34,215 bases of DNA from Alphaproteobacteria bacterium. GTDB taxonomy: Bacteria > Pseudomonadota > Alphaproteobacteria > Bin95. The notes beneath the pieces are model-generated. The model saw nothing but the letters and a program-made list of their open reading frames with translations. It ran no database searches and was not told where the DNA came from. How positions within the stretch are numbered: the first letter of the stretch is position 1; each line of letters opens with the position of its first letter. Below are positions 15,114 to 33,809 of the stretch, one piece after another. The position numbers were made by a program, and so were the translations under genes. The DNA is taken from contig JAJEIH010000026.1 in NCBI GenBank assembly GCA_022827685.1, forward strand, positions 1 to 34,215, written 5' to 3'.

Positions 15114-15159
15114 CGCCGCCTTGTAGCCCCCCGCCCCGCCGGGCGGCAAGCGGGCGCGG

Positions 15160-15564
15160 TCAGTCCGAGACCTTGGCGCCCCAGGCGTTGGTGGCGTAGT
15201 CGGCGGTGACGATGTCGAAGACGACGCCGTTGGGGTCGTAGAACTTGATCTCGGTCGCGCCCTCGGCCGAATCCGGCAGCCGCATGTGGTAGCGGCCGCC
15301 ATTGGCCTCGATCTCCCGGCTCATGGCGTCGATGTCATCGACCACGAAGCCCATATGGTGCAGGCCGTGGAAGTCCTTGCCGCGTTCGTCGCCCGCCTGC
15401 TCGTCGGTCTTGAACTTCAGGATCGCCAGGCTGACCACCCCGTCGGAAAGCAGGATCGCAATGTCGGACTGCATCTGCCGCGTCATGCCGAATGTGTTCT
15501 CATAGAACCGCGCCGCCGCCTCCAGGTCCGGAACCGTGACCGCGATATGCCGAAGTTTCGCCAT
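15160..15564 (-). CDS. VOC superfamily (glyoxalase/dioxygenase-fold) protein
   Basis: This is a 134-residue protein with the paired beta-alpha-beta-beta-beta fold of glyoxalase I and extradiol dioxygenases. The N-terminal half opens LRHIAVTVPDLEAAARFYENTFGM. The second half has LHHMGFVVDDIDAM and IKFYDPNGVVFDIVTADY. Likely metal ligands are H6 and H70. The position that is usually glutamate in the last strand is D117 here. I took the ATG at 15564, which has GGAGG 7 bases upstream; the frame remains open to 15612. It is a stand-alone gene between the DUF815 operon and the M20 peptidase. It could be a lactoylglutathione lyase-like or epimerase-like enzyme; the substrate is unknown. Confidence 0.82.
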   Translation of the reverse strand: MAKLRHIAVTVPDLEAAARFYENTFGMTRQMQSDIAILLSDGVVSLAILKFKTDEQAGDERGKDFHGLHHMGFVVDDIDAMSREIEANGGRYHMRLPDSAEGATEIKFYDPNGVVFDIVTADYATNAWGAKVSD

Positions 15565-15649
15565 GCAAGCCTCCCTGTTCGCCTCGGTTGAAGACACAGA
15601 GTTCGTCCTCACCCGTCGTTTGCCCGGAAGATAGCACGCCGCCTCTCTG

Positions 15650-17026
15650 CTACGTGCCGATGTCCCAGAAGATGCCGGTCATCATCTCCAGGCCCTCGCG
15701 CAGCAGGGGGGCCAGCGCGTGTTCGTTGGGGGCGTGCTGGGAGCAACCGGCGAAGGAATGCGGCACCCAGACCGTCGGCATGCCGAGCACATCGGTGAAC
15801 ACGTCGTTCGGGATCGAGCCGCCGAGATTGGGAAGCAGCGCCGGGGGGCGGCCCAGCGTCTTGTCGATCGAGGCTATGACGCGGCGCACCCAGGGGTCGT
15901 CGAGCGGCGTGCGGGTGGCCTTCATGGTGGTGCGCATGGGCGCGGCCTGCACGTCCTCGAAGCCGTTTGCGTCCAGATGCGCGCGGATGGCGGGCAGGAA
16001 GGCCTCGTCGTCGGAGCCCGCAACGAAGCGCATCTGGATGACGGCCCGCGCACTCGGCGGGATGGCGTTCACCGGCCGCTCGGCGTCGCCCGCGCCCAGG
16101 GCCAGCACTTCGAGCGCGTTCCAGCCGAAGACGCGCTCCCAGGGCGTGAGGCCCGGCTCGCCCCAGTCCGGGTCGATCTCGGGCGCGCCCGGCCCGCCGT
16201 CCACGGCGCAGTCGGCGATCGCGGTGCGCACCGCGTTCGACATGGGCGGCGGCCTCAAACCCTCGACCAGGATGCGCCCGCGCGCGTCCACCATGCTGGC
16301 GACGGCGCTCGCGAGCCGGGTCGCCGGGTTGGAGAGCAGGCCGCCCCAATTGCCGGAATGGTGGCCGCCCTCGCGGGCCTCGATGTCCAGCGCGAAGTTG
16401 ATGACGCCGCGCGAGCCCAGATAGACGGTCGGCCGGTCGGGCGCGACGCGCGGCCCGTCGGACGCGACCAGCACGTCCGCAGCCAGCCGTTCCCGGTTGG
16501 CTTTGGCGAAGGCGCGCAGGCCCTTCGAGCCGGTCTCCTCGCTGGTTTCCACCAGCAGCTTCGCGTTGAAGCCGAGCCGCCCGCGCTCCGCCAGCACGGC
16601 CTCCAGCGCAGCGAGGTTGATGCCGTGCTGGCCCTTGTTGTCCACCGTGCCGCGCCCGTAGAGCTTCTCGCCGTCCCGGTCGAGCGTCCAGGGGTCGCGG
16701 CCCTCCCGCCACTGCCCCTCATGGCCGAGCACGGTGTCGCCGTGGCCATAGACGAGCACGGTCGGCAGCGCCGCGTCCTCCTGCCTGACGGCCGTCAGCA
16801 GCGGCCCGCCGCCCTCCTCCGGATTCGGCTCCACCCGGACCTCGAAGCCCATGCCGCTGGCCGCCGGCGCGATCTCCTCTTCCAGGTAGCGCCAGAGATG
16901 CGGCGCAAAGGCCGGGTCCTGGCTGGTGGAGGGCACCGCCACCCGGCGCGCCAGCGTCTCTATGAACGCGCCGCTGTCATAGTGGTCGCGGATGCGAGCG
17001 AGCGCGCCCTCGCGGGTTCCGGTCAT
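15650..17026 (-). CDS. M20 family metallopeptidase / dipeptidase
   Basis: This is a 458-residue zinc-dependent hydrolase of the M20 family (dipeptidases and amidohydrolases). Metal and catalytic residues are visible as H95-x-D97 in YGHGDT, D129 in GRGTVDNKGQ, the Glu pair E163-E164 in ETSEETGSKG, and a C-terminal histidine in CSQHAPNEH. A central dimerisation domain lies between the two halves. The length fits the carnosinase-like CNDP group rather than the shorter ArgE/DapE proteins. It is cytoplasmic, with no signal peptide. It begins 8 bp after the folD stop and is probably co-transcribed with yggT and folD. The substrate is unknown. Confidence 0.88.
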   Translation of the reverse strand: MTGTREGALARIRDHYDSGAFIETLARRVAVPSTSQDPAFAPHLWRYLEEEIAPAASGMGFEVRVEPNPEEGGGPLLTAVRQEDAALPTVLVYGHGDTVLGHEGQWREGRDPWTLDRDGEKLYGRGTVDNKGQHGINLAALEAVLAERGRLGFNAKLLVETSEETGSKGLRAFAKANRERLAADVLVASDGPRVAPDRPTVYLGSRGVINFALDIEAREGGHHSGNWGGLLSNPATRLASAVASMVDARGRILVEGLRPPPMSNAVRTAIADCAVDGGPGAPEIDPDWGEPGLTPWERVFGWNALEVLALGAGDAERPVNAIPPSARAVIQMRFVAGSDDEAFLPAIRAHLDANGFEDVQAAPMRTTMKATRTPLDDPWVRRVIASIDKTLGRPPALLPNLGGSIPNDVFTDVLGMPTVWVPHSFAGCSQHAPNEHALAPLLREGLEMMTGIFWDIGT

Positions 17027-17034
17027 CGCCGGGA

Positions 17035-17922
17035 TCAGCCCTCCGGCTCCGCCACGCCCGCCTGCCGGCAGGCGGCGGTCACGGTGTTGGCGAGCAGGCA
17101 GGCAATCGTCATCGGGCCGACGCCGCCCGGCACCGGCGTGATGGCGCCCGCGACCTCGGAGGCGCCGGCGAAATCAACATCGCCGACGAGCCGCGTCCTG
17201 CCCTCCTCCGCCGCCGGTATGCGGTTGATGCCGACATCGATCACCGTCGCGCCGGGTCGGACCCAGTCGCCCTCGATCATGCGCGCGCGCCCGACGGCCG
17301 CCACCAGGATGTCCGCGCCGCGGCAGACGCCGGGCAGGTCCTGGGTGCGGGAGTGCGCGAGCGTCACCGTGCAATGCTGGGCGAGCAGCAGGGCCGCCAT
17401 CGGCTTGCCGACGATGTTGGAGCGCCCGACGACCACCGCGCGCTTGCCGACCAGCCCGTCCGGGTGGACCTCGGCCAGCATGGTCATGCAGCCGCGCGGC
17501 GTGCAGGGCGCGAGCGCCGGGGCGCCGGTCCAGAGCGCGCCCACATTCTCCGGGTGGAAGCCGTCAACATCCTTGGCGGGGTCGATGGCGCGCAGCACCT
17601 TGGCGGAGTCGATCCCGTCCGGCAGCGGCAATTGCACGAGTATGCCATGCACCGCCGGGTCCCGGTTCAGGCTCGCCACGAGCGCCAGCAGCTCCGCCTC
17701 GGGCGTGTCGTCGGGCAGCCGGTGCTCGAAGGACGCCATGCCGGCGGCCTGCGTCTCCCGGTTCTTGTTGCGGACATAGACGGCGCTTGCCGGGTCGTCG
17801 CCGACCAGCACCACGGCGAGGCCGGGCAGGACCGTGCCGTCCAGCGCGGCGACCTGCGCCGCCACGCGCTCGCGCAGCTTCGCCGCCAGCGCCTTGCCGT
17901 CGATGATGCGGGCTCCGCTCAT
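17035..17922 (-). CDS. folD: Bifunctional methylenetetrahydrofolate dehydrogenase/cyclohydrolase
   Basis: This is a 295-residue enzyme that interconverts methylene-, methenyl- and 10-formyl-tetrahydrofolate with NADP, supplying one-carbon units. The catalytic lysine is K53 in [11 protein letters not shown]. The substrate region [12 protein letters not shown], the [12 protein letters not shown] segment, the Rossmann motif [12 protein letters not shown] and the C-terminal [15 protein letters not shown] are all conserved. It lies between yggT (16 bp gap) and the M20 peptidase (8 bp gap). Confidence 0.96.
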
Positions 17923-17938
17923 GGAAGCTCCCTCCCCC

Positions 17939-18238
17939 TCAGGCCATGGAAAAGATCATGCGCCCGACCACGCCGCGCAGGAAGTAGATCAGGAGCAGCA
18001 GGATCAGCGGCGAAAAGTCCAGCCCGGAGACCATCGGCACGAAGCGCCGGATCGGGCGGAGCGCCGGCTCCGTCAGCCGCCAGAGCACGTTCATCGCCGT
18101 GCGCACGAAGCCGTTGGAGGTGTTGACGACGTTGAAGGCGGCAAGCCAGCTGAACACCACCCAGACGATCAGGACGATCTGGTAGAGCTCCAGCACGACA
18201 TCGAGAAGCTGGAGCAGCGGCACGAGAATGACATTCAT
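17939..18238 (-). CDS. YggT family integral membrane protein
   Basis: This is a 99-residue inner-membrane protein with two hydrophobic segments (about residues 4-36 and 74-94). The family-typical loop between them reads [15 protein letters not shown], near residues 54-68. YggT proteins are linked to osmotic or potassium stress tolerance and septum-associated functions in some bacteria, but the mechanism is not settled. It is the first gene of the yggT-folD-M20 unit, on the strand opposite the tRNA-Ala gene. Confidence 0.88.
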
Positions 18239-18282
18239 GGGCCCGGTCGCCTCCGGCGGATGGACTCGGCTCTGGCCGGACC

Positions 18283-18311
18283 TTGACAGGCTCCGGCGCG
18301 TTGAACATAAC
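18283..18311 (+). promoter_or_regulatory. Promoter of tRNA-Ala
   Basis: TTGACA (18283-18288), preceded by CT to give the CTTGAC alphaproteobacterial form, is followed by exactly 17 bases and CATAAC (18306-18311). A run of C and G directly follows the -10, a GC-rich discriminator typical of stable-RNA promoters under stringent control. Transcription would start about 38 bases before the tRNA. Confidence 0.65.
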
Positions 18312-18355
18312 CCCGCTTCCCGGCTGCCGCCTAGAGGCGGCGTCGTGCGATCTGT

Positions 18356-18431
<76 letters not shown>

Positions 18432-18459
18432 CTCCGCTTTCCGGGAAACCGCCTCCGCG

Positions 18460-18485
18460 CCCGGCGGGCCGCGAGCCGCGCCGGG
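18460..18485. terminator. GC-rich hairpin between tRNA-Ala and mgtE
   Basis: CCCGGCG (18460-18466) pairs perfectly with CGCCGGG (18479-18485). The intervening bases can add a GGC/GCC extension. It lies 28 bases after the tRNA and 5 bases after the convergent mgtE stop, so it could end both transcripts. There is no clear T-run on either side, so this is a structural prediction only. Confidence 0.4.
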
Positions 18486-18490
18486 ACGGG

Positions 18491-19810
18491 TCAGATCAGC
18501 CCCGAGAGAAGCGTTGCGATGCCGAGAAAGCTGAAGAAGCCGGCGATGTCGGTGATCGTGGTGAGCACGATGGATGAGGATTGAGCGGGGTCCTGGCGAA
18601 GGGTCGTCAGCAGGATCGGGATGGCGGCGCCCGAGATGCCCGCGATCGTCATCGAGACCACCATCGAAACGGCGATAATGCAGGCGAGCCCGTCCGAACC
18701 GCTCCAGATATACACCCCGGCGGCGGTCGTCAGGGCCACCGCCACGCCGTTCAGCAGGCCGACATTCGCTTCCTTGGCGACGACCCGGAACCACTGCGCG
18801 GGCCGGATCTCGCGAAGCGCCAGACCCCGCATGGTTACCGCGAGCGCCTGCGCGCCGGTGTTCCCCGACTGTCCGGCGACCACCGGAAGCAGCACCGCCA
18901 GCGCGGTGTACTGGGCGATGGTGTTCTCGAACAGCCCGACGACTGCGGCGGCGACGAAGGCGGTGGCAAGGTTGATCTCCAGCCAGGGCAGGCGTTTGCG
19001 CACGGCGAAAGCCGCCGTCGAGGTCGCCCGTTCTTCCCTGCTCACGCCCACCATGGTCTGGATGCCGAGGCTCGTGCTCTCCAGTTCCGCTTCGATCACC
19101 GAGGCGTGGCGGATCGTCCCAAGCAGCCGGCCGTCATGGTCGACCACCGCGAGGTCCGCCAGGGGATTCTGTTGGAGGAAATCCCCGACCTCCTCCATCG
19201 TCGCCATCGGACCGACCGATCCGCCGACCGGCCGGACCAGGCTCCCGATGCGCTCTTCGGGCTCGGCCAGCGCAATGTCCTGCATGTCCACCCAGCCGGC
19301 GAGGCGGTTGCCGGAATCGACCGCGAAGCAGCCCGTCCGGCCGGGCCTGCGGTCCTGGCGTAGCCGCGCGCGCATGTCGGCCACGGTGCCGGACTGCCGG
19401 AACAGCTGCACCCTTGTGTCCATCATCGCGCCTGCGCGGTCGGGCGGATACCGCAGGAGGAAACGCACTTCCTTCGCGATGCGTTCCGCGACGAGCGACA
19501 GCAGCTCTTCGCGTTCCTCCTCCCCGAACACGGCGAGGAGGCGCGCGAGCCGGCCGGGATCGAGCTTTTGCATCGTCTCGACTGCGAGCGGCCGGGAGAG
19601 CGCCGACAGCAGCCTCACGGCGATATCCGGGGAGAGGCGCTCCCAGACCGGCAGCATCGTCGAGACGGGCAGGCGTTCGAAAATCGCAACCTGTTCCGCG
19701 GTCTCCAGCAATTCGAACGAGTCGGTCGCGGCGGCGGGGTAGCGCGAAAAGAACTCCTCTTCAAGGCGGCGTTCGGTTTCGGAGATCCCGTTCGTGATGG
19801 TGTCGGCCAT
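18491..19810 (-). CDS. mgtE: Magnesium transporter MgtE
   Basis: This is a 439-residue Mg2+ channel of the MgtE family with all three regions. A helical N domain (to about residue 110) and a CBS-domain pair (about 115-240) form the cytoplasmic Mg2+ sensor. The C-terminal membrane domain begins LPWLEINLATAFVAAAVVGL. It carries the family motif VAGQSGNTGAQ and the pore-lining aspartate in TITDIAGFFSFLG. The ATG at 19810 has GGAGGAG 7 bases upstream, embedded in the end of the preceding gene. The longer upstream frame is only the antisense-composition shadow of that gene. It follows the amber-split MgtE-N/CBS gene with a 4-bp gap, so translation is probably coupled. Confidence 0.93.
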   Translation of the reverse strand: MADTITNGISETERRLEEEFFSRYPAAATDSFELLETAEQVAIFERLPVSTMLPVWERLSPDIAVRLLSALSRPLAVETMQKLDPGRLARLLAVFGEEEREELLSLVAERIAKEVRFLLRYPPDRAGAMMDTRVQLFRQSGTVADMRARLRQDRRPGRTGCFAVDSGNRLAGWVDMQDIALAEPEERIGSLVRPVGGSVGPMATMEEVGDFLQQNPLADLAVVDHDGRLLGTIRHASVIEAELESTSLGIQTMVGVSREERATSTAAFAVRKRLPWLEINLATAFVAAAVVGLFENTIAQYTALAVLLPVVAGQSGNTGAQALAVTMRGLALREIRPAQWFRVVAKEANVGLLNGVAVALTTAAGVYIWSGSDGLACIIAVSMVVSMTIAGISGAAIPILLTTLRQDPAQSSSIVLTTITDIAGFFSFLGIATLLSGLI

Positions 19811-19814
19811 CGGC

Positions 19815-20123
19815 CTACTCCTCCGGGGGCGCTTCAGCCTCCCCGTCTTCGTTCGCCGGGCCGGCGAGGAAGAAGAACGCTGTGCGCCAGTAGAGTTCCG
19901 CGAGATCGAGAGCCAGACCGCCGAGACTGTCCTTCGGGGCCGCGCCGCCCGGTTCGGCTGTCGCGCGGAGCAGGGCCGCCCGGCGCACCACACCGAGAAA
20001 CACGCCCCGGCGGTCCGTCGCCGGCAGAACGTCGAACCGCTCCCATGCCTCCAGCAGGCTCGCCTGCCGGAGACCGCCGCCGGCCCGCAGCGCGACCGGC
20101 CCGGCCCGCTGGACCTCGCGCAT
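19815..20123 (-). CDS. C-terminal part of a split MgtE-N/CBS protein (second CBS domain)
   Basis: This is a 102-residue frame beginning MREVQRAGPVALRAGG. It reads as the second CBS motif of a CBS pair (GPVALRAGGGLRQASLLEAWERFDVLPATDRRGVFLGVV). A hydrophobic segment ALDLAELYWRTAFFFLAG and an acidic tail follow. It is in the same reading frame as 20139-20651 and is separated from it by a single TAG codon and five sense codons (DAGRP). The two parts therefore make one gene of about 278 codons with a nonsense codon. It may be translated only by readthrough of the TAG or by restart at the ATG at 20123, whose ribosome site is weak. It could equally be a decaying pseudogene. It has no MgtE membrane domain. 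Confidence 0.55.
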   Translation of the reverse strand: MREVQRAGPVALRAGGGLRQASLLEAWERFDVLPATDRRGVFLGVVRRAALLRATAEPGGAAPKDSLGGLALDLAELYWRTAFFFLAGPANEDGEAEAPPEE

Positions 20124-20138
20124 CGGCCGCCCGGCGTC

Positions 20139-20651
20139 CTAGAGTACGCAGTCGCGCGCATCGACGACGCCGGCAAGCCGCTGGTCTTCGTCCAGCACGT
20201 AGAGATATTTGCGCAACGCCTCGGGAGCGCGGCGCGCGACTTCGACCGCCTCTGCGACGGTCGTCTCCGGCCGCACCGTGACGACATCGGGGTCGATGAG
20301 CGAACCGACGCTTCCCGAGGGAAACCGGAGCGCCATCGACAACCGCGCCGACGCCCGCGCGGGCAGGGCCTTCGTCAACGCCGCGCGCTCGGCCCGGCCC
20401 AGACGGAGCAGCAGCGGTGCGGCCAGTTCGGCGGGCAAGTGCGAGACCGGCCCGGCCGCCGCCGCGGCCGGCAGCATTCCGAGCGTTTGCGCCGCGGCAT
20501 CCGGCAGCATGGCCCGGAGGAGCGCCGCCCCGGCGGGGGCCGGCGCGCCGGAGAGAACGTCCGCGACGATCCCGGGATCGGCCGGCTCCAGAACGCGGGC
20601 CGCGTCTGCGGGATAGGCTTCGACGAATCGCATGGCGACCGGACCGAGCAC
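20139..20651 (-). CDS. N-terminal part of a split MgtE-N/CBS protein, ended by an in-frame TAG
   Basis: This is a 170-residue frame from a GTG at 20651 (an ATG at 20633 is an alternative). Residues up to about 105 form an Ala/Leu-rich helical region like the MgtE N domain. Next comes the first CBS motif (SLIDPDVVTVRPETTVAEAVEVARR, then YLYVLDEDQRLAGVVDARDCVL). The stop TAG (20139-20141) falls exactly at the junction between the two CBS motifs, and the frame continues beyond it into 19815-20123. It begins next to the stop of the MscS-like gene and is co-directional with mgtE. The most economical reading is a recent nonsense mutation; a sequencing error, a functional split or readthrough are alternatives. 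Confidence 0.6.
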   Translation of the reverse strand: MLGPVAMRFVEAYPADAARVLEPADPGIVADVLSGAPAPAGAALLRAMLPDAAAQTLGMLPAAAAAGPVSHLPAELAAPLLLRLGRAERAALTKALPARASARLSMALRFPSGSVGSLIDPDVVTVRPETTVAEAVEVARRAPEALRKYLYVLDEDQRLAGVVDARDCVL

Positions 20652-20652
20652 G

Positions 20653-21513
20653 TCAGGCGTCCGGGTCGCGGAGGATCGAGGTCTGTTCGTCGAACAAACG
20701 GGCCGGCACCGTCGCGCGGCCCTGTTCGGTATCGAGCACGACGGCCGTACGGGTGATTTCCAGAATCTCGCCTTCGAACGCGCCCACGGCGACCCGCTGG
20801 CCCATGCGGTAGCTCCGGCGGACGTAAAGGGCGGCGATCAGGTTGCCCGCCGCGCCGCCCGCACCGATCCCGAACGCCACCGCGCCGCCGCCGAGAAGTA
20901 CCGCCGTCGCGATGGTGACCACATTGACGAGCAGGGTGACATCGATCCCGATCTGGCCTGCCGCGATGATGCCGGCGAAAACGAGGACGACGATCCTCGC
21001 CAGCCGTCCGAGCAAATCCGGGTTGGAAAGCCCCGCCGAGCGCGCCGCCGAGGCGGCGGCGGTGGAGACAAGGCCGCTCGCCACATAGACCGCGAACACG
21101 GCCGCCGCCCAGACAAGCAGCAGCGGCAGGTAGAGCAGAAGCTGGCTGAAAATGTCGACCAGCCCCGGCAGAGCCAGCAATTTGGAGGCGGCGGCGAGGA
21201 AGAAGACGATGACCAGCCAGTATGCGCTGTGCGCCAGGATCCGCGAGACCGGCCAGCGGAGTTCGGTTTGCGCCTGACCCATCCGGTCGCGCGCGGCGGA
21301 GACCATGCGGTCGATCCCGGTTCCGAACCGGACGATCGCCGCCCTCAACCCGATCGCGATGAGCCAGCCGGCGAGCAGGAGCAGCACCGCGCCGACAGCG
21401 CCCGGAACGAACGCCGCGGCCGCTTCGACCAGCTCCCGGAAGGTGTTGTCCAGCGCGGCGAGCCAGATCTCATAGGTCGACCGCCAGGCCGATTCGTTCG
21501 CTTCCTGCGACAT
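20653..21513 (-). CDS. MscS family mechanosensitive ion channel
   Basis: This is a 286-residue membrane protein with about five hydrophobic segments: near residues 26-48, 85-107, 120-145, 170-190 and 192-225. The last two carry the Gly/Ala-rich pore helix LGGGAVAFGIGAGGAAGNLIA that is typical of MscS channels. After it comes the short beta domain (VGAFEGEILEITRTAVVLDTE and TVPARLFDEQTS). It lacks the larger C-terminal alpha/beta domain of E. coli MscS, so it belongs to a shorter subfamily. The ATG at 21513 was preferred; the frame is open to 21579. It is the first gene of a unit with the split MgtE-N/CBS gene (1-bp gap) and mgtE. Confidence 0.88.
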   Translation of the reverse strand: MSQEANESAWRSTYEIWLAALDNTFRELVEAAAAFVPGAVGAVLLLLAGWLIAIGLRAAIVRFGTGIDRMVSAARDRMGQAQTELRWPVSRILAHSAYWLVIVFFLAAASKLLALPGLVDIFSQLLLYLPLLLVWAAAVFAVYVASGLVSTAAASAARSAGLSNPDLLGRLARIVVLVFAGIIAAGQIGIDVTLLVNVVTIATAVLLGGGAVAFGIGAGGAAGNLIAALYVRRSYRMGQRVAVGAFEGEILEITRTAVVLDTEQGRATVPARLFDEQTSILRDPDA

Positions 21514-21701
21514 AGACCGATCCTCGAAAGACCCGCTGCGGGGCCCTGTGGGAAGCGGGCCGTTTCCCGACGGAAACATCGGCGCCGGCCCCGCGAATGC
21601 CCTCGGTCTTCCACTGTCGCAAACTTAAAGGTCGAACGGGGACTCCGCAATATCGCCCGCCAGCGGCCGCTATGGCGGGACCCAAGCCGGCCGCGGACGC
21701 C

Positions 21702-22322
21702 TCAGCCGTCCAGGTCTTCGCTGGCGAGCACCGCCATCAGCGCATAGACGCCGACCTCGCCCTGCCCCGCGAGCGCCTCGGCCGCGCGCCGCGCCGCGCC
21801 CTCGGTTGTTGTCTGCACCAGCACGGCCCGCGCCGCCTGCGTGTCCGGGCCGCGGATCGAGGCTTCCACGGTCGGGCTGCCCGTTGCCGCCATGTCGAGA
21901 TGCCAGCGCGCCGCGCTCAGGGCCTCCCCGGCGCCGGCCAGCCCCTCCAGATCGACCGCGCCGAGGCCCTCGTCCGCGCGCAGCACCGCCGCCCAGGCGC
22001 CTATGGACGCCTCGCCCGTCTCGGCCTCGACCGTCATGGCCGAGCGGATCGTGTTGCGGAAGACATGCATCACGCGCTCCGTCCACCCGGTCGGGTCGTT
22101 CAGCCGGTCGCGATAGGCTTTCGACGCCAGCACGCCCACATTCTCCGTGCGGTACCAGGTGAAATAGCCCCGGTCGGCCTCGACCGCGCGGTAGCGCACG
22201 CCCCTGAGGAAGCCCGGCACGCCCACCCGCTCCGGCAGGTGCTCGCGGTTGTACCATTCGTTGAAATCCGCCTCGCCTTCCGCGGCGCAGTCGGTCCACA
22301 CCGCCAGGATTCCGTTGCCCAT
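21702..22322 (-). CDS. Dimeric alpha/beta-barrel-like protein, unknown function
   Basis: This is a 206-residue cytoplasmic protein. The start GILAVWTDCAAEGEADFNEW, then WYNREHLPERVGVPGFLRG, resembles the ferredoxin-like dimeric alpha/beta-barrel families that include EthD and DUF4286. The second half (from about residue 100) looks like a second, more diverged copy, with AVLVQTTTE and VYALMAVL as beta strands. I know no role for it. The ATG at 22322 has a strong GGGAGGGG ribosome site. It is divergent from glnD with a gap of about 100 bp and stands alone on its strand. Composition and ribosome site indicate a real gene; the fold assignment is tentative. Confidence 0.7.
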   Translation of the reverse strand: MGNGILAVWTDCAAEGEADFNEWYNREHLPERVGVPGFLRGVRYRAVEADRGYFTWYRTENVGVLASKAYRDRLNDPTGWTERVMHVFRNTIRSAMTVEAETGEASIGAWAAVLRADEGLGAVDLEGLAGAGEALSAARWHLDMAATGSPTVEASIRGPDTQAARAVLVQTTTEGAARRAAEALAGQGEVGVYALMAVLASEDLDG

Positions 22323-22419
22323 AAACCCCTCCCGTGACTGCATCGGGCAAGGCCCGCCGCCTTGACGGGCCGTCCTCTGCCGCCCATGGTCGCGCCAGAA
22401 TGCAGCGGGGGCAAGGCGC

Positions 22420-25161
22420 GTGGACGGAACCGGCCTGCAATTTGCCGGGGAGAGCGCCCGGCAGGCGGCGCAGACGGTCGCCCGGCTCGATGCGCTGGGC
22501 TCCGAGACGCGCCCCGACCGGGGGCGGGTGCTCGCTATCCTGAAGGAGGGCGTGGAGGAGACGCGCGGGTCCGTGCGCGCGGCCTTCGAGGCCGGGCAGC
22601 CGGCCGATGTCTCCATGAACGACCTTTCCGCCTCCATGGACAGGATCGCCGGCGGCCTGTTCGACTTCGTCGCCGGAACGGTGTTCCCGGCCGCGAACCC
22701 CACCACCGGCGACCGCTTCGCGCTGGCGGCCCAGGGCGGCTACGGCCGCGGCAACCTCGCGCCCTATTCGGACCTCGACCTTCTGTTCCTCCTGCCCTGG
22801 AAGGTCACGCCGAGGGTCGAGCAGATCGTCGAGTATGTGCTGCTGCTGCTCTGGGACACGGGCCTCAAGGTCGGCCACGCCACCCGCTCGGTCGAGGAAT
22901 GCCTCCGCCTCGCCGGGCGGGACACGACGATCTGCACAAGCCTGCTGGAGACGCGCTTCCTCTGGGGCGAAGCCGGGATTTACGAGGAGTTCCGCACCCG
23001 TTTCGCCGACGAGTTGGTCAGGAAGACCGGCCCCGAATTCGCCGAGCGCAAGCTGGCCGAGCGCGACGAGCGGCATCTGCGCTTCGGCGACAGCCGGTAT
23101 GTCGTCGAGCCGAACGTCAAGGAGGGCAAGGGCGGGCTGCGCGACCTCCACACCCTCTACTGGATCGCCAAATATCTCTACCGGGTGGACGAAGTGGGCG
23201 AGCTGGCGGCGAAGGGCGTGTTCTCGCCCGCCGAGCTTGCGGCCTTCGTGCGCGCGGAGCGCTTCCTCTCTACCGTCCGGTGCCATCTGCACTACCTGGC
23301 CGGGCGGGCCGAGGAGCGGCTGACCTTCGACCTCCAGCAGGAGATCGCCGCGCGCCTGGGCTACCGCAGCCGCGCCGGCGCGCGCCCGGTCGAGCGCTTC
23401 ATGAAGCACTATTACCTGGAGGCGAAGAAGGTGGGCGACCTGACGCGCATCTTCTGCGCCGCGCTGGAGGACGAACACCGCCGCCGGCCGCTGTTCTCGA
23501 TCTCGCGGCTGCTGACCCGCGACAGGCAGATGGGGCCGTTCACCGCCGAGGGGGGCTGGCTCAACCTTGCGCACGAGGACGCCTTCGCCGAAGACCCGGC
23601 CGCCATGCTGCGGCTGTTCCACGAGGCGCAGCACCACGAGCTGGACATCCATCCAGCGGCGCTCCGCCAGGTGACACGGAACCTGCACCGGATCGACTCC
23701 GGCTTCCACCGCCGGCCGGAGGCCGCCGGACTGTTCCTGGACATGATGACCTCGGAGAAAGCGCCGGACATCACGCTCCGGCGGATGAACGAGGCCGGCG
23801 TGCTCGGCCGCCTGATCCCGGTGTTCGGGCGGGTCGTGGCGCAGATGCAATACGACATGTACCACACCTACACGGTGGACGAGCACACCATCCGGGCCAT
23901 CGGCATCCTGCACCGCATCGAGCAGGGCGAATTGCGGGACGAGACCCCTGTCGCCTCCGAGGTCGTCCACAAGGTGCTGTCGCGCCGGGCCCTTTATCTC
24001 GCCGTCTTCATGCACGACATCGCCAAGGGGCGCGGCGGCGACCATTCGGTGCTGGGGGCCGAGGACGCGCTCAGGCTCGGGCCGGAGCTCGGCCTCACCG
24101 ACGAGGAGACCGAAACCGTCTCATGGCTGGTGCGCCATCATCTTGCCATGAGCGCGGCCGCCTTCAAGCTCGACCTCAACGATACGCGCGCCATCGCCGA
24201 TTTCGCGGACCTCGTGCAGTCTCCGGAACGGCTCCGGCTGCTGCTGGTGCTGACCGTGGCAGACATCCGCGCGGTCGGCCCCAATGTCTGGAATGCGTGG
24301 AAGGCCGCATTGCTGCGCGAGCTCTATTTCAAGACCGAGGAGTTGCTGACCGGCGGCGATGTCCGTCTCGCCGCCGCCGAGCGGGTGCAGGAAGCGCAGG
24401 ACGAACTGCGCGCCGCCCTGCCCGGCTGGCAGGAGGAAACCTTCGCCGCCTTCGCCGACGCCGCGCCCGCGAGCTACTGGCTCGCCTGGGATCTGGACAC
24501 GCTGGTGCATCACGCCGGCATGATCGCGGAGGTCCGGCACGATCCCGCCGCGCTCTCCGTGAAGGCCCGCATCGACGAGAGCCGGGCGGTCACCGAGGTG
24601 GTGTTCTGCGCCCACGACCATCCGGGCCTGTTCTCGCGTTTCGCGGGCGCGCTGGCGGCGTCGGGCATGAGCGTCGTCGAGGCCCGGGTCTTCACATTCG
24701 CCAACGGCATCGCCATCGACACCTTCCAGGTCCAGGACGCCGAGGCTCAGGCCGTGACCGGCGCGCGCCAATTGCAGGCGCTGGAGCGCCGGGTGCGGGA
24801 AGCGCTGGGGGGCGAGATCGACCTCCGGCGCGAGGTCCGGCGCCGGCGGTCCTGGCCCTCGCGCACCGCCGTCTTTACCGTGCCGCCGCGCGTGCTGATA
24901 GACAACCGCGCCTCCGCCACCCACACCGTCATCGAGGTCAACGGGCGCGACCGGCCGGGCTTCCTGTTCGACGTGGCCCGCGCGCTCTCGGACCTCAGCC
25001 TCCGGATCACCACGGCGCGCATCGCCACATACGGCGAACGGGTGGTCGATGTGTTTTACGTGAAGGATGTGTTCGGGCTGAAAGTCGTCCATGACGGCAA
25101 GCTCGCCCGCGTGCATGAGAGGTTGCTGCAGGCGGTCGCGGGCCCGGACGAAACCGGCTGA
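22420..25161 (+). CDS. glnD: Bifunctional uridylyltransferase/uridylyl-removing enzyme GlnD
   Basis: This is a 913-residue nitrogen sensor that uridylylates PII proteins when glutamine is low and removes UMP when glutamine is high. The N-terminal nucleotidyltransferase domain has GGYGRGNLAPYSDLDLLF with metal-binding aspartates at residues 118 and 120. A GlnD-specific helical region follows, then the HD domain with YTVDEHT and FMHDIAKGRGGDHS. Two C-terminal ACT domains for glutamine binding start at about residues 725 and 835 (VVFCAHDHPGLFSRFAG and EVNGRDRPGFLFDVARAL). The start is GTG at 22420, with purine-rich sequence upstream and no better in-frame ATG. It is followed by murJ 9 bp after its stop. 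Confidence 0.95.
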   Translation: MDGTGLQFAGESARQAAQTVARLDALGSETRPDRGRVLAILKEGVEETRGSVRAAFEAGQPADVSMNDLSASMDRIAGGLFDFVAGTVFPAANPTTGDRFALAAQGGYGRGNLAPYSDLDLLFLLPWKVTPRVEQIVEYVLLLLWDTGLKVGHATRSVEECLRLAGRDTTICTSLLETRFLWGEAGIYEEFRTRFADELVRKTGPEFAERKLAERDERHLRFGDSRYVVEPNVKEGKGGLRDLHTLYWIAKYLYRVDEVGELAAKGVFSPAELAAFVRAERFLSTVRCHLHYLAGRAEERLTFDLQQEIAARLGYRSRAGARPVERFMKHYYLEAKKVGDLTRIFCAALEDEHRRRPLFSISRLLTRDRQMGPFTAEGGWLNLAHEDAFAEDPAAMLRLFHEAQHHELDIHPAALRQVTRNLHRIDSGFHRRPEAAGLFLDMMTSEKAPDITLRRMNEAGVLGRLIPVFGRVVAQMQYDMYHTYTVDEHTIRAIGILHRIEQGELRDETPVASEVVHKVLSRRALYLAVFMHDIAKGRGGDHSVLGAEDALRLGPELGLTDEETETVSWLVRHHLAMSAAAFKLDLNDTRAIADFADLVQSPERLRLLLVLTVADIRAVGPNVWNAWKAALLRELYFKTEELLTGGDVRLAAAERVQEAQDELRAALPGWQEETFAAFADAAPASYWLAWDLDTLVHHAGMIAEVRHDPAALSVKARIDESRAVTEVVFCAHDHPGLFSRFAGALAASGMSVVEARVFTFANGIAIDTFQVQDAEAQAVTGARQLQALERRVREALGGEIDLRREVRRRRSWPSRTAVFTVPPRVLIDNRASATHTVIEVNGRDRPGFLFDVARALSDLSLRITTARIATYGERVVDVFYVKDVFGLKVVHDGKLARVHERLLQAVAGPDETG

Positions 25162-25170
25162 GGGCTGGCG

Positions 25171-26733
25171 ATGGCGCTCCTGCGCGCCGCCGCGACCGTT
25201 GGCGGCTACACGATGGCAAGCCGGGTGCTGGGCTTCGTGCGCGACCTGGCATTCGCCGCGCTCCTCGGCGCCGGACCCATAGCCGACGCCTTCCTCGTCG
25301 CCTTCCGGCTGCCAAACCTGTTCCGCCGGCTGTTCGCGGAGGGCGCCTTCGCGGCGGCCTTCGTGCCGATGTTCTCGGGACGGCTCCAGCAGGACGGGCG
25401 GAGGGCGGCGCTCGCCTTCGGCGAAGAAGTCATGGCGGTGCTGTTCGCGGCGCTGCTCGTGTTCACCGCGCTCGCCGAAGCCTTCATGCCGATCCTGGTC
25501 GCGGTGCTGGCGCCGGGCTTCCTCGACCAGCCGGAACGCTTCGGCCCGGCTGTGCTGTTCTCGCGCCTCACCTTCCCCTATCTCATGTGCATGGCGCTGC
25601 TGGCCTTCTTCGCCGGCATATTGAACAGCTTCTACCGCTTCGCCGTGCCGTCGGCCGCGCCGATCCTGCTCAATGTCGTGCTGATCGCGGCGCTGGCCGT
25701 CTCCGCGTTCTGGACCGGCGCGCCGGGGCTCGCGCTCGCCGTCGGGGTCTGCCTTGCAGGGTTCGGGCAACTGGCCCTGATCCTCTGGGATATGCGCCGC
25801 GCGCGGCTCAGGCTCCGGCTGCGCCGCCCCCGGCTCACGCGCGGCGTCCGGCGGCTGCTGCGCCAGCTGGTTCCAGGCGCGCTGTCGGCGGGCGCCCTCC
25901 AGATCAACCTCCTGATCGGCACGATGATCGCCTCGCTGCTGCCGACCGGGGCCGTCGCCTGGCTGCATTATGCCGACCGCATCTACCAGCTTCCCCTCGG
26001 CGTGGTCGGCATCGCGCTCGGCACGGCGCTGCTGCCGCGCCTCACCCGCACGCTGGAGGCCGGCGACACGAGGGGTGCGTCCGACGAGATGAACCGGGCG
26101 GTCGAGATCGCCATGCTGCTGGCACTTCCGGCCGCGGCCGCGCTCATCGCCATGCCGCACGCGGTCGCGGGCGTCCTGTTCGAGCGCGGCGCGTTCACGG
26201 CCGCGGACACGGAGGCCACGGCCGCGGCCATCGCCGCCTTCGCCGCAGGCCTGCCCGCCTTCGTGCTGGTGCGGGTTCTGCAGCCGGGCTTCTTCGCGCG
26301 CGGGGACATGCGCACCCCGTTCCGGATCACGGTTGTCGTCGTGGTGCTCAACACCGGCCTCAGCCTGGCGCTCTACCGCGTCATCGGCCATGTCGGCATC
26401 GCCGCGGCGACGAGCGCCGCCGCCTGGGCGAACACGGCGCTGCTCTGGGCCGCGCTCCGGCGGCGCGACCATTGCCGGGCGGACAAGCGCCTGCTCTCCC
26501 GCTTGCCGCGCGCGGCCGGGGCGGCGCTCATCATGGCGGCGGCGCTCCTCGCCGGGCTCGAAGCGGCCGATACCTGGCTCGCCGGCGGGGAGGCCCGGCG
26601 GATCGCGGCGCTGGCGGCGCTCTGCGGCGGCGGCCTCGGGGTCTTCGTTCTTGCAGCGATCGGTCTCGGCGCCGTCAGGGCGGGCGAGATACGCCGGCTG
26701 CTGTCGTCCGGGTCCGGCCGCACCGAGGCATGA
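25171..26733 (+). CDS. murJ: Lipid II flippase MurJ
   Basis: This is a 520-residue polytopic membrane protein of the MurJ/MviN family (MOP exporter superfamily), with about 14 transmembrane helices. It flips lipid II across the inner membrane for peptidoglycan synthesis. The N-terminus MASRVLGFVRDLAFAALLG, then ADAFLVAFRLPNLFRRLFAEGAF, is diagnostic. The central YADRIYQLPLGVVGIALGTALLPRL is the conserved second-bundle motif. The ATG has GAGG 7 bases upstream. It forms an operon with glnD, a pairing often seen in alphaproteobacteria. It converges on the potassium channel gene with a 27-bp gap. Confidence 0.95.
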   Translation: MALLRAAATVGGYTMASRVLGFVRDLAFAALLGAGPIADAFLVAFRLPNLFRRLFAEGAFAAAFVPMFSGRLQQDGRRAALAFGEEVMAVLFAALLVFTALAEAFMPILVAVLAPGFLDQPERFGPAVLFSRLTFPYLMCMALLAFFAGILNSFYRFAVPSAAPILLNVVLIAALAVSAFWTGAPGLALAVGVCLAGFGQLALILWDMRRARLRLRLRRPRLTRGVRRLLRQLVPGALSAGALQINLLIGTMIASLLPTGAVAWLHYADRIYQLPLGVVGIALGTALLPRLTRTLEAGDTRGASDEMNRAVEIAMLLALPAAAALIAMPHAVAGVLFERGAFTAADTEATAAAIAAFAAGLPAFVLVRVLQPGFFARGDMRTPFRITVVVVVLNTGLSLALYRVIGHVGIAAATSAAAWANTALLWAALRRRDHCRADKRLLSRLPRAAGAALIMAAALLAGLEAADTWLAGGEARRIAALAALCGGGLGVFVLAAIGLGAVRAGEIRRLLSSGSGRTEA

Positions 26734-26760
26734 AGCCCCGAAGCGCGGTCCCGGACCCTG

Positions 26761-27876
26761 TCACGCCGAACCTTCGCCTTCCTCCCGGATCAACCGTTCC
26801 AGCATGTCCGGGGCGGGTTCGTGGCCTTCCTTGACCATCAGGAAGAGCGCCGATGCGAACACCTGGCGGTCCGGCCGCGGATTGACGATCACCTCGCCGT
26901 CGTCCGCGCTGGCATAGGCCAGCGCCGTTCCCGCGCCGGCGGAGACCAGCCGGGCGGCCAGGCGGCCCCAGGGGACGCCGGCGACAGGCACCTCGTAGCG
27001 CACGCATTCGTCGCCGTGGCGCGTGAACAGGTCCTCGATGATGGCTTCCGAGCCGGGCGCAATCAGCGCCCGGACCAGCATCTCGGGATAGCCGCGCATG
27101 GGGCGCATGACCGTCGAGGCGCCGGCGTCGCGCAGCCGGTCCCGGTTCCGGTCGTCCACGCATTCCACGGCAATCCGCCCTTTCGCCCCCATTTCCACCA
27201 GCCTGTGCACGAGATCGAACGCCGTTCCGTCGGACGCGGCATCCTTCTCGTCATTGGCGAGCACCACCACCGCCGCAGCGTCCGCCGCGCCCGAGTCCTC
27301 CAGCTTCTCATCCGAGGCGGCCCAACCGTGGACATGAACGACACCGAGACGGGTCAGGCTTTCCGGAAGGCCCTCCGGCCAGCAGGTCGAGAGGATCAGA
27401 ACGTCCCTCTTCCGTCCCCATCCGGTTTCCCGGAACTGCCGAAGCAACGTTTCGAAATAGGGATCCGCGCCCGCACTCGGCGCATTGACGATCAAGACAT
27501 GGTCCTTCAACCGCCACCTCCAGAGGCCGCGCTGCCTGAGCGCACGCCTGTTTGACCTGTACTCGAAATAGTCCGCCGCTCCCTTGCCCAGCGCGAACAC
27601 GCCCCCGACATACACCAGAATTACGGTGGACCAGCGCCCCGCTGCCGTGGATGCCGACAGGTCGCCGTAGCCGACGGTTGTCATCGTCGTCGCGGTGAGC
27701 CAGGCGGCGTTGCCGAAGTCCAGCCCCTCGAACGCCATCATGGCCAGCGTATGGCTGACCGTTATCGCGGCCAGGTAGGCCGCCAGCACGACCAGGCCGC
27801 GCCGCGCGCCCGCGACGTCGGCATTCGGCAGACCCTTTCGCTTCCGCCACCGGGAGCGAAACAGTATTTCCAGCAT
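26761..27876 (-). CDS. Two-TM potassium channel with C-terminal RCK-like domain
   Basis: This is a 371-residue ion channel. The first membrane helix is LVVLAAYLAAITVSHTLAMM (29-48). The pore helix and selectivity filter TTMTTVGYGD follow, and the second helix is VILVYVGGVFALGKGAADYF. The cytoplasmic part has two Rossmann-like and regulatory segments, as in RCK/TrkA-N channels. The first strand reads HVLIVNAPSAGADPYF where a GxGxxG dinucleotide motif would be expected, so ligand binding may differ. A TrkA-C-like end (YEVPVAGVPWGRLAARL) is present. It begins 42 bp after the ABC ATPase stop on the same strand and may be read through from that operon. Potassium selectivity is inferred from VGYGD. 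Confidence 0.87.
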   Translation of the reverse strand: MLEILFRSRWRKRKGLPNADVAGARRGLVVLAAYLAAITVSHTLAMMAFEGLDFGNAAWLTATTMTTVGYGDLSASTAAGRWSTVILVYVGGVFALGKGAADYFEYRSNRRALRQRGLWRWRLKDHVLIVNAPSAGADPYFETLLRQFRETGWGRKRDVLILSTCWPEGLPESLTRLGVVHVHGWAASDEKLEDSGAADAAAVVVLANDEKDAASDGTAFDLVHRLVEMGAKGRIAVECVDDRNRDRLRDAGASTVMRPMRGYPEMLVRALIAPGSEAIIEDLFTRHGDECVRYEVPVAGVPWGRLAARLVSAGAGTALAYASADDGEVIVNPRPDRQVFASALFLMVKEGHEPAPDMLERLIREEGEGSA

Positions 27877-27918
27877 GGAGTTCAGCTTGTCCTCCAGCCC
27901 GGTCGGGTTCGAAACCGG

Positions 27919-29748
27919 TCAGGCAGGGGCCGAACCTTCCAGGAACTCCGCCTCGCTCCGGTGGCATTCGATAGCGTGCCGGCCGCCGAGACGCCGGACG
28001 GGCGGCGTCTCGCGGTCGCAGGTGCCCTCGATGGCGATCGGGCAGCGGTCGAAGAATGGGCAGCCCGTATCGGTCATCCTGACGACGCGGTCGATGCCCG
28101 CCTGCGCCTCCTGGCTCTCCATCGTCTCTTCCAGCCAGCCGATGCGCAGTTCCGGGACCGAGGCGATCAGCAGCCGGGTATAGGGGTGGTAGGGAGGAGA
28201 GAGCACGCGGTCGGTCGGCCCCTGCTCCACCACCCGCCCGGCATAGAGCACGACAATATCGTCGGCGAAGGACGCGACGGTGGACAGGTCGTGGCTGATG
28301 AAGACGAAGGAGACGCCGCTCTGCCTCCTGAGCCGCTTGAGGAGTTCGATGACATTGGCCCCGACGATGGTGTCGAGCGCGGAAATCACCTCGTCGCAAA
28401 GCAGCACTTCGGGCGACGCCGCCAGCGCGCGGGCGAGGTTGACCCGCTGCTTCTGCCCGCCGGAAAGCTCCTCGGGATAGCGCCCGGCGAACTCCGGCGG
28501 CAGCTCCACCATCTGCAGCAGATCGCCGACGCGCCGGCGCCTCTCCCTGCCGCGGAGACCGAAATAGAATTCCAGCGGCCGGCCGAGAATGCTGCCGATC
28601 CGCTGGCGCGGATTGAGCGCGACATCGGCCATCTGGAACACGAACTGGATCTTCTGGAGCTCGCTGCGGTCGCGCTGCTGGAGGCCCGGCCGGAGCACCT
28701 GCCCATCCAGCAAAATGTCGCCGTCAGTCGCGGGCAGCAGGCCGGACATGACCCGCGCGAGGGTGGATTTGCCGCAGCCCGACTCTCCGATGATCCCGAC
28801 CGTGTGGCCCCGCTGCACGGTCAGGTTCACATCGCGCAGCACCTTGACGGTCACGGAGCCGTCCATGCGCCGGCCGTAGCCCGCATTGACGCCCTTCACC
28901 TCTATGGCGGGGCTGTCCCGCAGATGCTCGGCCAGCGCCTCGTCGCCCTGGCCCGCGGCCGGGGGCGGGCGCACGGCCGCCATCAGCCGGCGCGTATAGT
29001 CGTGCGCCGGCCGGTTGATGACCTGGTCGGCGTCCCCGTGCTCCAGGATGTCGCCCGCATAGAGGACGACGATTCGGTCCGCGATCTGCGCGACGACGGA
29101 GAGGTCGTGGGTCACGTAGAGCGCCGCCGCCCCCTCGCGCTTGATGACGGACTTGAACGCCTTGAGCACCTCGATCTGGGTGGTGACGTCGAGGGCGGTG
29201 GTCGGCTCGTCCAGAATCAGCAGGTCCGGCCTGCCGCAGAGCGCCATGGCCGCCATCAGCCGCTGCAGCTGCCCGCCCGACACCTGGTGGGGGTAGCGTT
29301 TGCCGAGGCGGTCCGGGTCCGGCAGCTCCAGGGCCCGGTAGAGTTCCTCCGCCCGGTCCTCCGCCTCCTCACGGCTCATCTGCCCGTGTAGGACGGGCGA
29401 CTCGGTCACCTGCTCGCCGATGGTGAGCGCCGGGTTGAAGGTGGCGGCCGCGCTCTGGGCGAGATAGGCGACGCGCTGGCCGCGCATGTCGCGCTTCTCG
29501 TCCGGCGGCATGGTGATCACGTCGCGGCCGTCCAGGCGAACCTCGCCGCCGGTGAACTCCAGGCCGGGCTTCGAGTATCCGAGCGCCGAGAGGGCGATGG
29601 TGGTCTTGCCCGAGCCGGACTCGCCGATGAGCGCCACCACCTCGCCGCGCTCGATGCCGAAGCTCACGCCCTTGACGATGGGCGCGAGGCTGCCGTCGTC
29701 CTTGCGCGCGTCTATCGTCAGGCCGTCGACTTCGAGGAGCGCCGCCAT
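27919..29748 (-). CDS. ABC transporter ATP-binding protein, fused double ATPase (peptide/nickel type)
   Basis: This is a 609-residue protein with two complete ABC ATPase domains in one chain, equivalent to DppD plus DppF. The first half has Walker [10 protein letters not shown], signature VSGGQLQR and Walker [13 protein letters not shown]. The second half has Walker [10 protein letters not shown], signature LSGGQKQRV and Walker [13 protein letters not shown]. The C-terminal cysteine-containing oligopeptide-transporter extension is [10 protein letters not shown]. It couples ATP hydrolysis to import through the two permeases upstream. The ATG at 29748 overlaps the last permease codon (TGATG), so the genes are translationally coupled. 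The substrate class (oligopeptide, nickel or other) cannot be decided. Confidence 0.93.
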
Positions 29749-30683
29749 CAGATCATCCTTTTCGCCAGCCGCCCGCCGGCATGGGCGGACACGTCGTCCA
29801 CGATGAGGTTTATGGCGATGGTTAGCGTGGCGATCGCGAGCGCCGGCACCAGCGGCGCGACGGAGCCGTAGGGAAGCCCGGAGAGGCTCTCCCGGACCAT
29901 GCTGCCCCAGTCCGACTGGGGCGGCTGCACGCCGAGGCCGAGGAAGCTCAGGCTCGAGATGAAGAGGATGACATAGACGAAGCGCAGCCCGAAATCGGTC
30001 GCCATCGGCATGGCGACATTGGGCAGGATTTCGCGGGTGACGATCCACCACAGGCCCTCGCCGCGCACCCGCGCCGCCTCGACGAAGTCGCTCACCTTCA
30101 CATCCAGCCCGAGCGACCGCGCTATCCGGAACACGGTGGAGGCGTATATGAGGCCGGTCAGCACGATCAGTATGGGGATGGTGCTGCCTATGGCGGCGAT
30201 CACCACCAGCGCCAGCATGATGCTCGGGATCGACAATATGGCGTCGTTGAAGCGGCTGAGCGCGGAATCCATGACGGTTCCGCCCACCGCCGCCGCGATG
30301 CCGAGCGTGACGCCCACGAGATAGGCGAGCAGGGTCGAGGCAAGCGAGATGCCGATGGTCGTGCGCGCGCCGTACAGCGTTCGGGAGAGCGTGTCGCGGC
30401 CGAGATAGTCGGTGCCGAGCCACGCGACCGAGCTTGGCGGCTGGTAGTCCGTCTCGGGATAGGGATTGTCGCTGCCCGGCACGATGAACAGCGCCTCGTC
30501 CAGGATGTCGGCCTCGTGATAGGGCGAGATCGACGGCCCGATGAAGACGATGGCCATCCAGAAGGCGACGACGCAGACCCCGAGCCTGCCGCTCCAGGAG
30601 AGCCGGAGCCGGCGGCGCGGCGGCGCGTCGGGCAGCTCCTCGAAGGCGGCCCGGGCTTCGGTCTTTTCGACACTGTCAGCCAT
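29748..30683 (-). CDS. ABC transporter permease, DppC-like
   Basis: This is a 311-residue inner-membrane permease of the peptide/nickel importer family. A cytoplasmic N-terminus of about 32 residues precedes the first helix (LGVCVVAFWMAIVFIG). The periplasmic stretch WLGTDYLGRDTLSRTLYGART is the family hallmark of DppC-type subunits. The EAA loop that contacts the ATPase is DFVEAARVRGEGLWWIVTRE. It overlaps the ATPase gene by one base and follows the DppB-like gene with a 10-bp gap. Confidence 0.93.
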   Translation of the reverse strand: MADSVEKTEARAAFEELPDAPPRRRLRLSWSGRLGVCVVAFWMAIVFIGPSISPYHEADILDEALFIVPGSDNPYPETDYQPPSSVAWLGTDYLGRDTLSRTLYGARTTIGISLASTLLAYLVGVTLGIAAAVGGTVMDSALSRFNDAILSIPSIMLALVVIAAIGSTIPILIVLTGLIYASTVFRIARSLGLDVKVSDFVEAARVRGEGLWWIVTREILPNVAMPMATDFGLRFVYVILFISSLSFLGLGVQPPQSDWGSMVRESLSGLPYGSVAPLVPALAIATLTIAINLIVDDVSAHAGGRLAKRMI

Positions 30684-30693
30684 GAAACTGCCT

Positions 30694-31665
30694 CTATCTC
30701 GGGTGCCGGAGGCGGGGATTGGACAGGATCGACACCATGTCCGCGATGAAGATCAGCACGATGTAGGTGGCGCAGAAGATCATGGCGCAGGCCTGCACCA
30801 GCGGCAGGTCGCGCGTCTGCACGGCGTCGATCATGAGCTTCGCCAGCCCCGGATAGGCGAAGACCGTCTCGACGATGACCACGCCGCTCACGAGATAGGC
30901 GAGGTTGAGGGCGATGACATTGGCGATGGGCCCGATGGCGTTGAACAGCGCATGGCGCAGGATGATCCGCTTGCGCGGCACGCCCTTGAGGATCGCCATC
31001 TCGATATAAGGAGAGCTCATGACGTTGAGCACGGTGGCCCTCGTCATGCGCATGATCTGCGAGGAAGCCACGATAATCAGCGTGAGCGCCGGCATCGCCA
31101 GCGCCCGGACCAGCTTCATCCCGGTCTCCTGCCCGCTGATATAGGCCGTGGCGGGCAGCCAGCCGAGCTGGACCGCTACCACCAGCACCAGCAGGGTGGC
31201 GACGAGGAACTCCGGCACGGAGATGAGCCCGAGCGTGGTGAAGGTGACCGCACGGTCGAGCTTCGTGCCAGGATACATCGCGGCCAGCAGCCCCACCGTC
31301 ACCGCGAACGGGACAGCGACCACAGCAACGGCAGTGGCCAGGCGCAGTGTATTGACCAGACGCGGCATCAACATTTCGGAGATCGGGGTGCCGATGGTCC
31401 CGGCGCCGGCGCCGGCCTTCGAGAAACCGAGGTCCCCGGTCAGCAGGTCGCTCAGCCAGATGAAGTACCGGACATGCGCCGGCTCATCCAGGCCGAGCTT
31501 GGCCCGCAGCGCCGCCAGGGATTCGGGCGTCGCCATCTGGCCGAGGATGATGTTCGCGACGTCGCCCGGCAGAATGCTGGTGCCGACAAAGATCAGCACT
31601 GACACGACGAACAGGGTTACGACGCCGAGCGCCGTCCGGCGCAGTATCGCGTTTAGGAGTGCCAT
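30694..31665 (-). CDS. ABC transporter permease, DppB-like
   Basis: This is a 323-residue inner-membrane permease. The N-terminal helix RTALGVVTLFVVSVLIFVG is followed by the periplasmic DppB-type segment with LPGDVA, and later PRLVNTLRLA. The EAA loop is YIEMAILKGVPRKRIILRHAL. It is partner to the DppC-like permease 10 bp downstream. A strong hairpin (31754-31781) lies in the 146-bp gap between the binding-protein gene and this gene, which would reduce permease mRNA relative to binding protein. Confidence 0.93.
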   Translation of the reverse strand: MALLNAILRRTALGVVTLFVVSVLIFVGTSILPGDVANIILGQMATPESLAALRAKLGLDEPAHVRYFIWLSDLLTGDLGFSKAGAGAGTIGTPISEMLMPRLVNTLRLATAVAVVAVPFAVTVGLLAAMYPGTKLDRAVTFTTLGLISVPEFLVATLLVLVVAVQLGWLPATAYISGQETGMKLVRALAMPALTLIIVASSQIMRMTRATVLNVMSSPYIEMAILKGVPRKRIILRHALFNAIGPIANVIALNLAYLVSGVVIVETVFAYPGLAKLMIDAVQTRDLPLVQACAMIFCATYIVLIFIADMVSILSNPRLRHPR

Positions 31666-31753
31666 TTTCTGGACGGTCCCGAACGGGCCGCCATGCCTTG
31701 CTGGAAGCTGCCGGACTGCCGGTCACGGCTTCGCAGCAGCGGCCGGAGAAGAA

Positions 31754-31781
31754 GGCCCGCGCAGCCGAAACCGCGCGGGCC
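31754..31781 (-). terminator. Intra-operon hairpin, possible attenuator between binding-protein and permease genes
   Basis: GGCCCGCGC and GCGCGGGCC form a perfect 9-bp stem around a 10-base loop. On the transcribed strand the stem is followed by TTCTTC, a weak T-rich tail. Such elements after substrate-binding-protein genes commonly protect the upstream mRNA or stop some of the transcripts. Confidence 0.55.
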
Positions 31782-31811
31782 CGTCTCATCCGGACGACGG
31801 CACGGCCGGGC

Positions 31812-33392: not shown

Positions 33393-33809
33393 GTTTGCGC
33401 TCTCCCTGCCGTCTGTCCCGGTCGCGTTATGGGTGATGTGGTCCGATACAGAAACTCCCACCGGCCAGACGGGCGATTTGTCGATCTCTCCCCGCGGCGC
33501 AGGAGCAACCATAGTCGTGACAGGCCCGAACCCTGCCGCCGCCATGTCTTCGCCCGGCGGGCCGCCGGGCGGCCGGCCCAGTGCGCCGACAGGGGAGTTA
33601 TGCCGGTATCGGGCGGACCCGTCAAACCCGCGGTCCGTCCCGGCGGCCTCGTTGACAAGCGGCGGGAAGCCGAAAGGCAGGCGGCAGCGCCGGTTTCCGG
33701 ACGATCCCCGGGCCTGCGGCCGAGGCCGGATGCGGGCGCGCTCCCGGCGCTCGCACAGGCGGGCGCGGCAATCTATGCTGGCGCCGACACAGATTGGGGA
33801 GCCGTTTGG
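33393..33809. other. Divergent intergenic region between the importer operon and the SDR gene
   Basis: This is 417 bases with no gene I can support. It must hold the promoters of the leftward importer operon and the rightward SDR gene. A GC-rich inverted repeat lies at 33552-33570 (7-bp arms, 5-base loop). TTGACA occurs on the plus strand near 33652 but lacks a matching -10 at the usual distance. I recognise no riboswitch. Confidence 0.5.

Follow-up and report, generated by a model that had tools for sequence, protein, structure and literature searches.

A single in-frame TAG in the MgtE_N-CBS gene of a conserved three-gene operon, probably a recent nonsense substitution

The middle gene of a conserved three-gene operon, which encodes an MgtE_N-CBS protein without transmembrane segments, is interrupted by a single in-frame TAG codon in the window (the whole 34,215-nt stretch of alphaproteobacterial DNA that was analyzed). 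The stop probably reflects a very recent, private single-base nonsense substitution, a C-to-T change from CAG to TAG, that truncates the gene. Such an event resembles a single-substitution nonsense pseudogene in its one sense-to-stop change, intact relatives, lack of a frameshift and recent date. Nothing essential differs from this class, although here the change is seen in a single draft assembly and the loss of function is predicted.

The interrupted frame and its intact homologues

On the minus strand, positions 20651-19815 form a single frame of 278 positions that begins with GTG directly after the stop codon of the upstream gene and ends with a terminal TAG. An earlier note on this DNA had read the region as one protein gene split by a single TAG between its two CBS motifs, with coding character resuming directly behind the stop and with the ribosome site of the downstream mgtE gene located inside the end of the interrupted gene. 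Our analysis agrees with each of these observations. The frame contains exactly one internal stop, the TAG at codon 171 (20141-20139), which falls into the linker between the two CBS motifs in an AlphaFold2 model, and the GGAGGAG ribosome site of mgtE overlaps the gene end. The codon-usage score is 0.23 before and 0.30 after the TAG, compared to a gene mean of 0.33, and is thus coding-like past the stop. Since this score continues and both sides of the TAG are 97% identical to an intact gene, the split frame represents more than a chance arrangement of open reading frames.

Features of the operon region and of the interrupted gene (window coordinates)
Feature	Position	Strand	Remarks
tRNA-Ala(CGC)	18356..18431	+	one edge of the operon insertion
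Short mgtE	18491..19810	-	intact, 439 aa; own GGAGGAG ribosome site
MgtE_N-CBS gene, interrupted	19815..20651	-	middle gene of the operon; intact homologues L025, L026, L027
3' part from possible restart ATG	19815..20123	-	CBS2 and C-terminal helix, 102 codons
In-frame TAG	20139..20141	-	codon 171; the three closest homologues have CAG (Gln), one base different at 20141
5' part	20142..20651	-	MgtE_N domain and CBS1, 170 codons
MscS-like channel gene	20653..21513	-	first operon gene, 286 aa; weak Pfam match in the window, clear in operon homologues

The nearest copy of the middle gene, L025 (JAJDVM010000231.1, from a MAG labelled Defluviicoccus sp.), shares 97% identity with the window protein over 278 residues, while L026 and L027 (the latter the same locus as G003) show 77% and 61%, respectively. 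Alignment of homologues at the position of the stop, which the earlier note had asked for, revealed that codon 171 is CAG in all three and that the Gln is invariant among them, indicating that one C-to-T step at 20141 accounts for the TAG. In more distant members the residue at position 171 varies, as expected for a loop residue.

Searches that covered the class, the phylum and an additional family yielded 17 copies of the middle gene besides that of the window (L025, L026, L027, G199, G122, G080, G136, G355, G097, G303, G211, G477, G492, G409, G704, G758 and G760), which stem from Alphaproteobacteria and another class. All 17 are uninterrupted and none carries an internal stop, so that the window copy is the only interrupted one and the same stop, for which a search in related genomes had been proposed, was not found in any relative (0/17). 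The earlier note had also reckoned with homologues in which the two halves are unrelated separate genes; the reverse was found, as the homologues are single genes, and a reading as two unrelated neighboring genes was rejected.

Comparison of the window with L025 showed 12 differing codons in the middle gene. When L026 and L027 were used as outgroups, the TAG was the only one of these to fall on the window branch, six fell on the L025 branch and five could not be placed. Throughout the middle gene, on either side of the TAG, no other synonymous or nonsynonymous change could be attributed to the window branch; the mgtE gene of the window has 17 changes on its own branch. This lack of any sign of decay in the middle gene indicates that the mutation is very recent, or an error, and a long-dead pseudogene was rejected because no other change could be placed on the window branch. 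In line with this, the undecayed 3′ part with its retained coding score fits a very recent mutation, and would fit an error or a read-through product as well. Raw pN/pS ratios (0.78 vs. 0.28) hinted at relaxed selection after the stop, but they comprise only 6 and 5 changes, and the polarizable ones lie on the L025 branch. The ratio of nonsynonymous to synonymous changes between the window and L025 is 2:3 in the 5′ part and 4:2 in the 3′ part, which is no significant difference (p = 0.57).

Explanations of the stop codon

Among the options that the earlier note had listed, recent pseudogenisation (or a sequencing error) is supported, whereas amber recoding and a restart into two halves are not. 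A sequencing error would mean that a base-call or strain-consensus mistake at one position of the draft hides an intact gene with a sense codon. The genome assembly (4.3 Mb, 98.95% complete) is a draft of 167 contigs with 2.43% contamination in which one base could be wrong, and the CAG in three close homologues as well as the lack of window-branch changes and of decay in the rest of the gene are compatible with such a mistake. However, no homopolymer or repeat was noticed around the TAG, and single-base consensus errors are generally rare relative to real nonsense mutations. An error in the draft is thus rather unlikely, and less likely than a recent private nonsense mutation.

The earlier note had favored a functional split for testing because of the precise location of the stop at a domain boundary. 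Translation would terminate at the TAG and restart at the ATG at 20123, generating an N-CBS1 and a CBS2-tail polypeptide that pair up. The TAG is indeed located in the linker between the CBS motifs, the frame offers an ATG six codons further on, and both parts retain coding character. Nevertheless, the 17 other copies are single unbroken genes with no split relative among them, and the restart residue Met177 is an Ile in L027. Moreover, the duplex energy with the 16S tail before the ATG at 20123 is −5.8 kcal/mol, a value equalled or beaten by 29% of the ATGs in the window, compared to −9.5 kcal/mol for the mgtE ribosome site, which is reached by 5% of them. An AGGA motif is located 13 bases upstream of the ATG; however, it is older than the stop, as it is part of a Gln-Asp coding sequence that is also found in the uninterrupted L025. 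With a weak ribosome site and a Met that is not conserved, a restart at 20123 was rejected, and a functional split appears highly improbable.

The position of the stop itself argues for a split less than had been thought. In the MgtE_N-CBS gene, a single transition can create a stop at only eight codons, among them codons 171 and 181, which are located in or beside the linker, so that a stop landing there is unsurprising. Thus, we do not take the precise domain boundary as evidence for design.

Amber read-through or recoding, with an amino acid inserted at codon 171 to give a full-length protein, is just as improbable. Although the frame past the TAG is open and conserved in relatives, no tRNA with a CUA anticodon, which would read UAG, is present among the 42 tRNA matches in the genome typed by ARAGORN, and the gene for RF1 (prfA) was detected above the curated cut-off. 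In addition, the sequence past the TAG matches that of the homologue with CAG, indicating that no special context has evolved. The terminal stops of 263 long genes (428 kb of the 4.3 Mb) comprise 171 TGA, 76 TAG (29%) and 16 TAA codons, and coding stops at TAG: within the 40 codons that follow, the codon-usage score drops to −0.27 for TAG and −0.36 for TGA, compared to a mean of 0.33 inside genes. Coding continues in frame just as often after TAG (4/76) as after TGA (8/171), without a TAG excess. TAG is an ordinary stop in this genome, and the tRNA set, the presence of RF1 and the terminal-stop statistics all argue against stop reassignment.

Predicted fold of the middle protein and effect of the truncation

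Pfam searches with the window protein detected an MgtE_N domain at residues 14-96 (PF03448; 26.5 bits at a cut-off of 25.9, with stronger matches in distant homologues) and a CBS motif at 115-169. The transmembrane MgtE domain (PF01769) is absent from the middle gene and present in the downstream gene. An AlphaFold2 model of an intact homologue, based on an eleven-sequence alignment (mean pLDDT 85.5) and replacing a poor earlier model from three sequences (pLDDT 63), predicts a helical N domain at 2-108, CBS1 extending to 169 with a closing helix at 165-169, CBS2 at about 183-232, and a terminal helix of low model confidence at 243-262. Foldseek aligned this model with the MgtE cytosolic domain (PDB 2yvy) over 229 columns with an rmsd of 2.9 and a TM-score of 0.70 by query and 0.77 by target, and a profile matches 2yvy by sequence, too (E 1.7e-28). 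A CBS pair is thus present, with CBS1 identified by Pfam and CBS2 by the structure model and the 229-column match to 2yvy. In the window genome, this pair is cut by the TAG.

The middle protein is predicted to share the fold of the cytosolic domain of Thermus thermophilus MgtE (PDB 2yvy, 2yvx, 5x9g), which consists of a superhelical N domain and a CBS pair. In contrast to the T. thermophilus protein, it is a separate protein of about 280 residues that lacks the five transmembrane helices and ends in one helix with hydrophobic residues, and its gene directly precedes a complete mgtE. MgtE forms a homodimeric Mg2+ channel; Mg2+ sensing and ATP binding take place in its cytosolic N and CBS domains, and most of the contact to its membrane part is made by CBS2 (PMC5529423).

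By analogy with the MgtE cytosolic domain, the intact middle protein may serve as a Mg2+/nucleotide-sensing subunit without transmembrane segments, with the operon MgtE or the channel-like neighbor as its target. The 170-residue product, which comprises only the N domain and CBS1, would be non-functional, as both CBS motifs are required for a CBS module and the conserved tail is missing. As the stop removes CBS2 and the tail, the sensor subunit is probably absent in the window genome. MgtE would still be made from its own ribosome site, leaving a transporter without a separate sensor. Elsewhere, the genome carries a second, canonical mgtE (G000:C46:42350-43582, 467 residues) with matches in most genomes of the genus; this gene may make the loss tolerable.

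A conserved three-gene operon at different genomic positions

The interrupted gene belongs to a conserved set (18491-21513) that encodes a CmpX/MscS-like channel, the transmembrane-less MgtE_N-CBS protein and a short MgtE. The same gene order was found in all 13 loci outside the window for which upstream sequence was available. Across these loci, the MgtE_N-CBS gene has 272-334 codons as called and the short mgtE 431-445 codons (with one longer ORF call), and gene ends within the set often overlap. The operon occurs in several families of the window's class and, outside it, in a second class of the same phylum (G477, G492, G409, G704); judged by these matches, it is present in at least two classes of Pseudomonadota. 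When the MscS-like gene of the window was aligned with that of L025, a 30-base in-frame gap was observed.

In the window as well as in L025, the three genes are flanked by tRNA-Ala(CGC) and an ORF at about 21702. The corresponding site is empty in the genome that harbors L027 (G062), where about 36 bases separate the flanks (L033, about 1550-1600) and the operon copy is found on another contig, and the genome of L026 carries the operon at a third place. Judged by this comparison of flanks, the operon (18431-21706) is an insertion beside tRNA-Ala(CGC), and its different genomic positions in the window and L025, L027 and L026 genomes suggest that the three genes move together. A passing look at its surroundings showed no integrase. 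Identity between the window (15152-33459) and the nearest genome (G060:C238) is mostly 97-99% per 500 bases across the set and thereby higher than in much of the flanks, where it is about 92-95% just beside the operon and 83-93% further right. This unevenness points to recombination in the operon region or to its recent transfer.

In the open-access literature that we searched, no description of the MgtE version of the operon was found, and it is apparently undescribed. The nearest printed parallel is the cmaX-cfrX-cmpX operon of Pseudomonas aeruginosa, which likewise combines an MscS-like channel (CmpX) with a Mg2+-transport protein. In contrast to the operon described here, its transport protein CmaX is a CorA homologue rather than an MgtE, and no MgtE_N-CBS protein has been described in it (PMC7641640). 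The operon copy in the L027/G062 genome (L086, 9725-11606) adjoins a second MscS-like gene and an ORF that by eye resembles an ECF sigma factor, an arrangement that recalls cmpX-sigX in Pseudomonas.

By itself, the stop is just another nonsense mutation or draft error; its value lies in pointing to a conserved operon in which a free-standing MgtE sensor module is flanked by an MscS-like channel and a short MgtE. Tentatively, the three gene products could be coupled physically or functionally, with a stand-alone MgtE_N-CBS protein sensing Mg2+/nucleotide for MgtE and the MscS/CmpX-like channel, and with the window genome as a natural sensor-less variant. Should the middle protein act as a Mg2+ sensor of its own, the operon would represent a link between osmotic channel function and Mg2+ uptake.
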